From Urechidicola croceus (GTDB lineage Bacteria > Bacteroidota > Bacteroidia > Flavobacteriales > Flavobacteriaceae), in contig NZ_CP017478.1 of assembly GCF_001761325.1 (NCBI RefSeq), forward strand, positions 2,935,501 through 2,999,500: DNA of 64,000 nucleotides. Direction: 5' to 3'. Below are positions 42,827 to 44,094 of this stretch, piece after piece (the first letter of the stretch is position 1; each line of letters begins with the position of its first letter). Under the pieces are notes generated by a model, which was not told where the DNA came from, did not search any database, and worked only from the letters and a program-made list of their open reading frames with translations. Both the position numbers and the translations under genes were made by a program.

Positions 42827-42909
42827 GCATATTTTGACAATTTATTAAGTAATTAGTCTTCTTTTAGGATAAAAAATGTAAAAGTTAAATTGTTGAAGTA
42901 CTTATATAT

Positions 42910-42941
42910 CCATTTATTGTTTTTTTATTACCATTTATTGT
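42910..42941. repeat. Direct repeat pair, 21-bp spacing, left edge of the lpd-M3 island
   Basis: CCATTTATTGT occurs at 42910-42920 and again at 42931-42941, an offset of 21 bp. The same sequence with the same 21-bp offset appears at the other edge of the intergenic island (44007 and 44028), in the same orientation. Two helical turns between copies would suit a protein binding one face of the DNA, or they may be ends of an inserted element. Confidence 0.6.
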
Positions 42942-42999
42942 TTTAAAGTATAAATAGATAAACTTTCTTTTTTTATAGTCTAGTATTTTACTATGTTTG

Positions 43000-43132
43000 T
43001 CATGTATTTGAAAATAAGTAGTTTGTTTTCAAATTGGCCCCGAAAGACATAATTTTTACTTATTGAGATTATTCTCAATATTGTTGCTGAAAACTTTAGA
43101 TCCCCGTAAAGAGATCGGCTTTTTTTATGGTA
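43000..43132 (+). other. Possible small RNA gene with CCCC motifs and T-run end
   Basis: A -7-like TATGTTTG lies at 42992-42999, giving a possible start near 43006. Within the segment are CCCCGAAAGACAT (43038-43050), a perfect hairpin TATTGAGA-TTAT-TCTCAATA (43061-43080), a second copy CCCCGTAAAGAGAT (43102-43115), and then GATCGGC followed by TTTTTTT. The GC-rich spots in very AT-rich DNA and the T-run at the end are what an RNA gene would look like. The terminal stem is weak and no family was recognised. Confidence 0.25.
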
Positions 43133-43256
43133 AAATTGAAGGGTTGAAACTATTAAAAATTGCTATATCAGATTTATTTCTGATAGTTTTTCAAGTTTTC
43201 ACTTAATAAGAATATTACAATATTAAATCTTAGAAATAAGTTTTAATAAACAATAT

Positions 43257-43547
43257 AACAATTGTAATTAAAAATCTGGGAGGTAATTGTTGTGGGGACA
43301 ATTATAAGGATGAAATTTAAGAGTGGTTGTTTGTTTTGCAAGTTTTTTAAATAGGCAAGACGATATTAAACAAGATTATTAAAAACCTATATATTATTGT
43401 GGGGATAGTATTAAGGACGATTAATAAAAATTGTTTAATTGAGAGATAAATTTAATATCTATAAACAGTTGTAACGCTTAAAACTTTTTTGAATATATAT
43501 CGTTGTGGGGACGAAAAACATTTAAAAGGTTTATGTTGCAACTGTTT
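43257..43547 (+). repeat. Three degenerate repeat units of about 106 bp with TTGTGGGGA core
   Basis: TGTGGGG occurs at 43291, 43398 and 43504, spaced 107 and 106 bp. In units 1 and 2 it is the 7-base loop of a 7-bp stem: TAATTGT/ACAATTA at 43284-43304, and ATATTAT/ATAGTAT with one G-U pair at 43391-43411. Unit 3 keeps a 4-bp inner stem (TCGT/ACGA). Units 1 and 2 also share AAGGATGA or AAGGACGA 8-9 bases after the core. Each core is preceded at about 20-30 bases by TTAAAA. In unit 1 an upstream AACAATT (43257-43263) could pair instead with AATTGTT (43285-43291). No coding potential beyond tiny ORFs is seen. Confidence 0.55.
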
Positions 43548-43552
43548 TTTTA
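43463..43552 (+). other. Long hairpin enclosing repeat unit 3, followed by T-run
   Basis: AAACAGTTGTAAC (43463-43475) and GTTGCAACTGTTT (43535-43547) are inverted with 12 of 13 positions matching. They enclose the third TTGTGGGGA hairpin in an 85-base structure. A T-run follows directly, so the 3' arm with its T-tract could act as a terminator for an RNA read from the left. This is a structure seen by eye only. Confidence 0.4.
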
Positions 43553-43645
43553 TTTTGGTTGGGGGTGATAATGTTTGTTAGAAGGTTAATATAGAATAAA
43601 CCTAGCCGTAACCATTTCACTGTAAAATGTTTACTGTGGGTGCAA

Positions 43646-43915
43646 TCATTTTACAAATGCTACGACCGATTTATCCTTTCCTACTAAAATATATTGTGAA
43701 ATCTTATTTAAATAATAAGTGAACTTTTCTTTTGTTAAAAATAAACCTACGCTTTTTTGTTGATTATTAAGAGTAAATTTTGAAACTCCCAATAATGATA
43801 AGTATTCGTTGTTAACGCTAATTACTGTAAAACTTTCTATGACATTATTGGTATAGAAATTACCGGCTGAAATGTCCAGCAAAAAAGCGATAGGTCTAAA
43901 TGAAATTAATTTCAT
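43646..43915 (-). CDS. Possible small gene inside the repeat island, 89 residues, unknown
   Basis: The open frame encodes 89 residues with a fairly protein-like mix (VSKFTLNNQQKSVGLFLTK, then KISQYILVGKDKSVVAFVK) and no recognised domain, signal peptide or catalytic motif. The ATG lies inside a perfect 16-bp palindrome, ATGAAATTAATTTCAT (43900-43915). A fourth TTGTGGGGA core lies directly upstream of it (43918-43926 on the plus strand). An 8-bp inverted repeat GTAAAATG/CATTTTAC (43622-43654) overlaps the stop. In AT-rich DNA a frame of this length could be chance, so it is a weak call. Confidence 0.35.
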   Translation of the reverse strand: MKLISFRPIAFLLDISAGNFYTNNVIESFTVISVNNEYLSLLGVSKFTLNNQQKSVGLFLTKEKFTYYLNKISQYILVGKDKSVVAFVK

Positions 43916-43932
43916 CGTTGTGGGGAATTTGA
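43912..43932 (+). repeat. Fourth TTGTGGGGA core
   Basis: ATCGTTGTGGGGA repeats the left half of unit 3 exactly (ATCGTTGTGGGGA, 43498-43510 region). It lies 415 bp after unit 3, close to four times the 106-bp spacing of the first three. The flanking stem is poor (4 of 7 pairs). It abuts the start of the possible 89-residue minus-strand gene. Confidence 0.45.
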
Positions 43933-44006
43933 TTAGTCTGAAATAATTTTACTTTGCAATGATATAAGAAAAAAATGTATCAGCAAAATATTTTTAAATA
44001 AAAATA

Positions 44007-44038
44007 CCATTTGTTTTGAAAATAATACCATTTATTGT
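44007..44038. repeat. Direct repeat pair, 21-bp spacing, right edge of the island
   Basis: CCATTTGTTTT (44007-44017) and CCATTTATTGT (44028-44038) are 21 bp apart. The second copy is identical to the left-edge repeats at 42910 and 42931, and all four are in the same orientation. The pairs bracket about 1.1 kb of non-coding DNA. Confidence 0.55.
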
Positions 44039-44094
44039 GAAAAACGTGCATTTTATTTTAAAAAGAGCTAATCTAAGACGAATTTAATTGTAGT

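Follow-up and report, generated by a model that had tools for sequence, protein, structure and literature searches.

A probable minus-strand noncoding RNA locus with CCCCACA hairpins, a conserved folded domain and a conserved operator between lpd and an M3 peptidase gene in Urechidicola croceus

The window analysed here (the whole stretch of 64 kb, positions 2935501-2999500 of the complete 3.43-Mb genome of Urechidicola croceus) is gene-dense and contains a single long gap, at 42841-44094, between lpd and an M3 peptidase gene, both of which lie on the minus strand according to ORFs and Pfam. As the first-pass annotation had reported with exact coordinates, this gap of 1,254 nt is the largest between ORFs of at least 100 aa and the only one that exceeds 400 nt, the second largest measuring 398 nt. 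The hairpins and the CCCC and GGGG tracts described there are present in the island, and so are the repeated cores: TTGTGGGGA occurs in it at 43290, 43397, 43503 and 43918, all four on the plus strand, and the total of five in the window compares with 0.43 expected per 64 kb and was reached by 0 of 100 shuffles. The lack of fit to a known class was also borne out, with no Rfam covariance model matching the island at the gathering threshold (best sub-threshold match, E 0.37) and no tRNA or tmRNA detected in it by ARAGORN. Note that no terminator was called in the island by a scan with a loop limit of 8 nt and a stem rule that may miss such hairpins, and that the sigma-70 scan of the island, which does not cover Bacteroidota promoters, returned nothing useful.

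The right half of the island (~43585-44060) matches 9 of 13 same-genus genomes with E 1.1e-8 or better and 68-74% identity, and the match adjoins the M3 gene in all nine relatives; G005, G006, G008 and G013 (completeness 69-97%) gave no strong match to this half, and many same-genus genomes are incomplete assemblies. The order in the nine relatives is M3, the conserved domain described below, a CAP-domain lipoprotein gene and then mostly a CCCCACA repeat array with an OmpA/SprF-like cluster. The CAP gene stands mid-locus in 9/9 relatives read, with an OmpA-like gene beyond it in 8/9 (cluster names given by eye), and in G003 (L054) lpd follows directly after CAP. No CAP match was obtained in the window's genome at E 1e-12, 104 of 149 family genomes having one, and no CAP remnant was found in the island. 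Urechidicola croceus has lost the CAP gene and kept the domain and the repeats of the RNA. The earlier suggestion of a scar was in this respect half right, since the CAP gene and the OmpA-like gene of the relatives are both missing here.

The matching repeat pairs noted at both edges turned out to be two-part operators of the form CCATTTRTT-N12-CCATTTRTT, and the pattern CCATTTRTTN{9,14}CCATTTRTT has only two matches in the 3.43-Mb genome, one at each island edge. The right one (44007-44036, plus strand), a LytTR-like direct repeat CCATTTGTT..CCATTTATT, lies upstream of a putative minus-strand promoter, and the second copy (42910-42939, plus strand), a pattern match, could face lpd. A repeat pair at 21 bp from start to start (12 bp between the 9-bp repeats) is found in the window and, with up to one mismatch allowed per repeat, in 9/9 relatives; indeed, TACCRTTYRTT-like repeats stand on the strand opposite to the presumed transcription in 10/10 genomes, with promoter-like boxes next to them. 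In the window these boxes (43957-43988, minus strand) are TTTTGC at 43988-43983 and TATCATTG at 43964-43957, read by eye, which we take to be a Bacteroidota promoter from its general consensus, and the relatives show TTTGG and TANNWTTG in 9/9, also by eye. A minus-strand start site may be guessed near 43950 from the sequence. LytTR operators are described, in the excerpt of PMC6193735 available to us, as direct repeats 11-13 bp apart upstream of a promoter; the right operator agrees with this in spacing and position.

A conserved structured RNA domain of ~330 nt occupies 43600-43930 on the minus strand (fold z -4.23), with a long-range stem (helix 1, 43743-43897, minus strand) whose arms lie at ~43880-43897 and ~43743-43759. 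In alignment A2, composed of 10 genomes picked by homology and synteny and not by folding, the consensus comprises 43 pairs, 18 of which show compensatory double changes, a number matched by 0 of 500 shuffles. Pairing holds in 91.9% of the A2 cells against 40-49% with the partner slid by 1-3 columns, a comparison that favours the consensus structure, as this was derived from the alignment on which it was scored. The RNAalifold consensus energy is -23.8 on the minus strand versus -12.7 on the plus strand; single-sequence energy, lower on minus in just 5/10 genomes, offers no choice of strand. For the domain structure, more weight attaches to the double changes and to the difference between strands in consensus energy, and comparison of the sequences establishes both the structure and its consensus strand. 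Structure is hence conserved in relatives, the lack of which had been named in the first-pass annotation among the findings that would speak against its proposal. The 3′ part of the domain is a hairpin, with the loop CCCCACA in 8/9 relatives and ACCCACA in the window.

Overlapping this domain is an 89-codon open frame (43646-43915, minus strand), noted early on as a possible gene of 89 residues, which exists as a frame and is probably not a protein gene. The frame stays open for 76-102 codons from a matching start in 9/9 relatives, and an open frame in 10 genomes would on its own suggest coding; a leader box also stands ahead of it, so that a real small protein might be imagined to account for the conservation. 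This we hold to be hardly probable, since differences are flat over codon positions (1363/1309/1517) with a mean uncorrected pN of 0.37 and pS of 0.44 in the 10 genomes, in contrast to the CAP-gene control in nine relatives (1668/1275/2758; pN 0.24, pS 0.62), the conserved residues coincide with stem arms and a Pfam search of the product gave no match. Within the pair L050/L051, pS is 0.14 and pN 0.10 in the ORF region and 0.49 and 0.05 in the CAP gene, and within L052/L057 pS is 0.21 in the ORF versus 0.46 in CAP. The ORF does not show purifying selection on amino acids and was rejected as a protein, its substitutions being even over codon positions and pN near pS, unlike the CAP control. Judged by this substitution pattern, the constraint on the region acts on nucleotides, and the region evolves as RNA and not as protein.

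The island carries four hairpin units, and those of its left part measure ~70-85 nt each and are spaced by ~106 nt. All four are placed on the minus strand, namely 43600-43671 (loop ACCCACA; model E 0.012; z -3.95 on minus and -0.52 on plus), 43463-43547 (loop CCCCACA at 43504-43510; E 3.7e-11 on minus and 6.9e-6 on plus; z -5.36 and -5.14, respectively) and two diverged units with the loop CCCCACA, at 43368-43436 (loop at 43398-43404; E 0.0097; z -1.97 on minus and -3.15 on plus) and 43256-43332 (loop at 43291-43297; E 0.0031; z -3.69 on minus and -2.91 on plus). The copies at 43463-43547 and 43368-43436 belong to the training set of the model; those at 43256-43332 and 43600-43671 lie outside it, three relatives' copies of the latter being inside. 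This covariance model (R1) gave five matches at E<0.02 in the 64 kb, all in the island (the four minus-strand units and one re-read on plus), and nothing at E<1 outside the island in the same 64 kb. Across loci, the family unit consists of an outer stem CAGYYGYAA/TTRCRRCTG and an apex of approximately AATTGTCGT-CCCCACA-ACGGTAGTAT.

Elsewhere in its own genome, R1 found one strong and one weaker copy. Among 397 family genomes, 7 were positive at E 1e-4, from 3 of the 237 scored Flavobacteriaceae genera and with 1-4 matches per positive genome, in a search whose stricter filters lose weak matches; the same-genus search at E 1 gave 13/14 positive genomes, G008 and G013 only weakly. An exact search for the 18-mer CGTCCCCACAACGGTAGT in a collection of 84,980 species yielded 82 stretches, nearly all of them titled Lutibacter or other Flavobacteriaceae (L195, L221 and L237 bear other names). 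It is thus well supported that these hairpins form a multi-copy RNA family, not found in Rfam and so far seen only in few related marine Flavobacteriaceae. From the sequence evidence, the island is most likely a minus-strand noncoding RNA locus composed of a conserved operator, promoter-like boxes, a folded domain and CCCCACA hairpins. The idea of a tandem small-RNA locus put forward in the first-pass annotation came close to this, to which should be added that the hairpins are of one family and that a covarying structured domain is part of the island.

In the hairpins, changes in one arm are compensated in the other, and the loop sequence is retained. Unfiltered, 104 of 233 sites show the outer arms (72 of the 81 exact sites), as compared with 10-26 of 224-232 when the positions are shifted, and at the sites collected without the inner-pair pattern, some others having been gathered with a pattern that already contained three inner pairs, at least four inner pairs occur in 38/152 versus 3/160 controls. 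The 91.1% of pairing in alignment A1 (41 units) overstates the support because its members were chosen for both stems: the 233 sites were reduced to 73 with both stems, to 53 without near-duplicates, to 49 without L218, L244, L249 and L259 and to 41 without L216, L242, L247 and L273 (other stem class), L051 (twice), L052 and L053. Note that the CAP-proximity count and the unit consensus used 80 of the 82 stretches (L194-L273), that the outer-arm, inner-pair and strand-stability counts used L194-L273 less L195 and L221 plus earlier loci, and that the gene-position count used L194-L273 less L195, L221 and L237. The units L216, L242, L247 and L273 represent a second class, with another outer stem (TTCTAATT-like arms) and the same apex; that of L216 lies behind a glycine dehydrogenase-like gene.

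Hairpin positions relative to genes were counted for 82 sites in 77 named loci, 74 of these sites having a visible gene of at least 100 aa. Read along the C strand, the nearest gene upstream is same-strand in 71/74 sites, at 44-991 nt, as compared with 47/74 for the opposite strand; convergent genes flank 41/82 sites, and in 11 sites an OmpA-like gene ends with its stop codon 42-46 nt away. A CAP gene stands within 1.5 kb upstream in only 31/85 sites, the remaining ones being behind an M3, a threonine synthase-like or a glycine dehydrogenase-like gene or at a typA-MarR locus (neighbours named by eye, with Pfam matches for examples of M3, MarR, CAP and LRR), and the same few loci carry the hairpin across Lutibacter species. 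Regarding stability, only 16/104 family units are more stable when read on the C strand, whose outer stem contains C-A or A-C mismatches in 37 and 16 of 104 that correspond to G-U pairs on the opposite strand; in the island, plus gives the lower energy for three of the four units, only the domain hairpin clearly preferring minus. Transcription of the island, the strand of the array units and the mechanism discussed below are what we infer from these data.

The same string is met ahead of start codons. A CCCCACA leader box (43919-43925, minus strand), whose CCCC is at position -10 relative to the ATG at 43915, stands at the start of the domain, and the box is doubled at 9-11 nt spacing in 8/10 genomes. 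Of 46 distinct CAP leaders, 36 have a CCCC no more than 18 nt from the ATG, compared with 5 of 342 other genes (80 of the 82 stretches, L274 and L275 replacing L195 and L221), and the first base of the last CCCC is at -10 in 21 CAP leaders and at -9 in 9, which at the sequence level fixes the leader position of the box. The five other boxed genes are three LRR genes, whose loci were fetched via the leader pattern itself, one lipoprotein-like gene (L196) and a 613-aa lipoprotein-like gene of the window's species. Leader boxes often occur without a hairpin, and Lutibacter leaders usually share CCCC only. Over whole genomes, the pattern ACCCCN{5,6}ATGAA is not clearly enriched (24 versus 18 for the reversed pattern in four genomes; 6 versus 4 in the own genome). 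Among the 30 best loci from other genera, CAP genes have the box in 1/27 leaders and CCCCACA within 700 nt downstream in 0/27, and in G016, from the third hairpin genus, which has the hairpin, two CAP leaders are without the box. With 36/46 boxed CAP leaders in the clade and 1/27 elsewhere, box and hairpin therefore largely go together by clade. The CAP leaders of other genera (L324-L347) carry a different conserved string, approximately CCAAATCTAAATttACCTacttATG, before the ATG in 18/27 loci; a search through the rest of these loci showed it at the leader only. This hints that the leaders of CAP mRNAs may be regulated across Flavobacteriaceae. The 613-aa gene itself (~1,096,780-1,096,930 of the own genome; L290:2780-2930) has the leader CCCCACGACATG, and its promoter region is similar to the island (71%, E 3.3e-7).

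The explanation that we consider best, with a probability of about 0.36, is that leader boxes and hairpins bind one trans-acting factor, which the CCCCACA hairpin RNA would titrate; the shared factor and the titration are both things we infer. Such a factor, most likely an RNA-binding protein, would recognise CCCC(ACA) in leaders and hairpins, control initiation at the leaders and be titrated by the hairpins, mostly located behind genes, and the array would normally serve to report, or to buffer, the mRNA of the CAP lipoprotein itself. As the CAP gene is gone in this species, the transcript would be left with the role of a decoy (about five sites), presumably on the remaining leader-box genes, i.e., LRR, the 613-aa lipoprotein-like gene and MarR (whose box here is TCCCACA). 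The RNA may in this way contribute to the control of a few surface-protein genes, and the locus would be a possible case of an mRNA turned into a noncoding decoy.

Against this stands the reading of the hairpins as 3′-end structures, either stabilisers or bidirectional terminators, with a protein that binds the apex in RNA processing, the leader box being separate. It draws on the location of the sites 3′ of genes (71/74) and between convergent genes (41/82), on the 11 sites at 42-46 nt from an OmpA-like stop codon and on the A/T-rich flanks round the outer stem in many copies, and we regard it as unlikely though deserving attention, because plain terminators need not conserve a long apex across loci and genera, the units stand in tandem, the terminator scan of the island (whose 8-nt loop limit and stem rule may miss the units) was empty and the apex string is repeated in leaders at a fixed distance from the ATG. 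Still less probable is RNA-RNA pairing, in which an opposite-strand transcript with the loop UGUGGGG would pair with CCCCACA leaders and repress initiation in the manner of FopS, small RNAs that act near start codons according to the excerpt of PMC11697453. The lower stability of the C strand and its mismatches that turn into G-U pairs would agree with this proposal, as would the plus strand of the 43503 unit, complementary by eye over 13 nt to the minus-strand leader at 43918; yet it is the C strand that is sense to the upstream gene (71/74 against 47/74), the 43600-43671 unit folds significantly on minus only, and many Lutibacter leaders share CCCC alone, too short for pairing.

If the string were instead double-stranded operator DNA, bound by the linked MarR-family protein encoded at the typA locus, which we think improbable, one would understand why the MarR gene's own leader has the palindrome-like ATTGTTGTCCCCACAACAAT in 4/9 same-genus genomes, with one-letter variants in 4 more (the MarR domain was confirmed in 2/2 tested). 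The string's fixed distance to the ATG, the compensatory variation of the arms around a constant loop, the copies behind genes and the Lutibacter MarR leaders read, which have CCCCCCGAAG-like strings and not CCCCACA, all speak against such an operator. A non-autonomous mobile element (REP/MITE-like) or its remnant, as also entertained in the first-pass annotation, would account for multi-copy palindromes at several loci, tandem copies and gene loss at the site, but is not favoured and seems very improbable to us: the conserved part adjoins M3 in 9/13 same-genus genomes, the hairpins of Lutibacter recur at the same few loci across species, copy numbers are low (1-4 matches per positive genome at E 1e-4; two more copies in the own genome, the one strong and the other weaker), and inspection by eye of the neighbourhoods read showed no transposase.

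Returning to titration of a shared factor, the closest likeness is with Csr/Rsm (CsrA with CsrB/RsmZ-type decoys), where, in the excerpts consulted, one short string is likewise used in initiation regions and in repeated hairpin loops. The Csr/Rsm loops carry GGA, in contrast to CCCCACA/ACCCACA on the minus strand of the island (GGGGA being here on the opposite strand, which might itself be transcribed), and the present hairpins, unlike those of Csr/Rsm, are mainly behind genes. In addition, a CsrA match reached the cut-off in 0/5 genomes, where two fragments with E 0.034 and 0.091 stayed under it, as against 3/14 control genomes, so that the system is at most Csr-like in its logic. We tentatively propose, as a possibility that should be read with some doubt, CsrA-independent Csr-like translational control, with a CCCC box at a Shine-Dalgarno-like position, titration by a heptaloop and a former mRNA as pure decoy; mRNA decoys for CsrA, e.g., Campylobacter flaA, are known. 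The Cuckoo/CcsR RNAs of Alphaproteobacteria, too, form hairpins in tandem, with C-rich loops, behind a gene; the island differs from them in loop, phylum and neighbour gene. Integron attC arrays, defined by RYYYAAC/GTTRRRY ends and a linked integron integrase, were considered in view of the cassette-like placement of the island-family hairpins after genes.

The FopS sRNAs, which act with RbpB near start codons in Bacteroides thetaiotaomicron, are likewise a multi-copy Bacteroidota RNA family tied to start-codon regions of surface-protein genes; they are short and act by pairing through a single-stranded seed, whereas the string of the island family is a hairpin loop (PMC11697453, in excerpt). 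No covariance-model match to FopS or any Rfam family was found in the island, with an Rfam set that may not include FopS. Bacteroidia ribosomes largely fail to use Shine-Dalgarno sequences (PMC9976891, in excerpt), and a box at this position together with a clade-specific hairpin therefore offers, as far as this excerpt goes, a testable entry to another mode of control. Among the literature records found, none on small RNAs in Lutibacter was to the point (one oral-microbiome study came up), and those on Urechidicola concern, by their titles, ecology, new isolates and nomenclature.

Some minor observations should be mentioned. The hairpin-rich stretch at 42950-43250, assigned to neither strand, has moderate fold z-scores on both (-2.39 on plus, -2.62 on minus) and gave short weak matches only in the compared loci, the best with E 2.6e-5 over 61 nt; its plus strand contains GGCCCCGAAAG and GATCCCCGTAAAGAGATC, with no clear homologue among these loci. 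The apex elements GTCGT..ACAA..GGTAG (e.g., in 43463-43547) follow one another, by eye, just as they do in the 16S rRNA motif AAGTCGTAACAAGGTAGCCGT given in the excerpt of PMC9976891, which could be chance. Finally, the region ~794,980-795,120 of the own genome (L288:4980-5120), upstream of a secreted-protein-like gene, contains three CCCCAC boxes and a weak hairpin match (R1, 795045-795116, E 4.7e-4).
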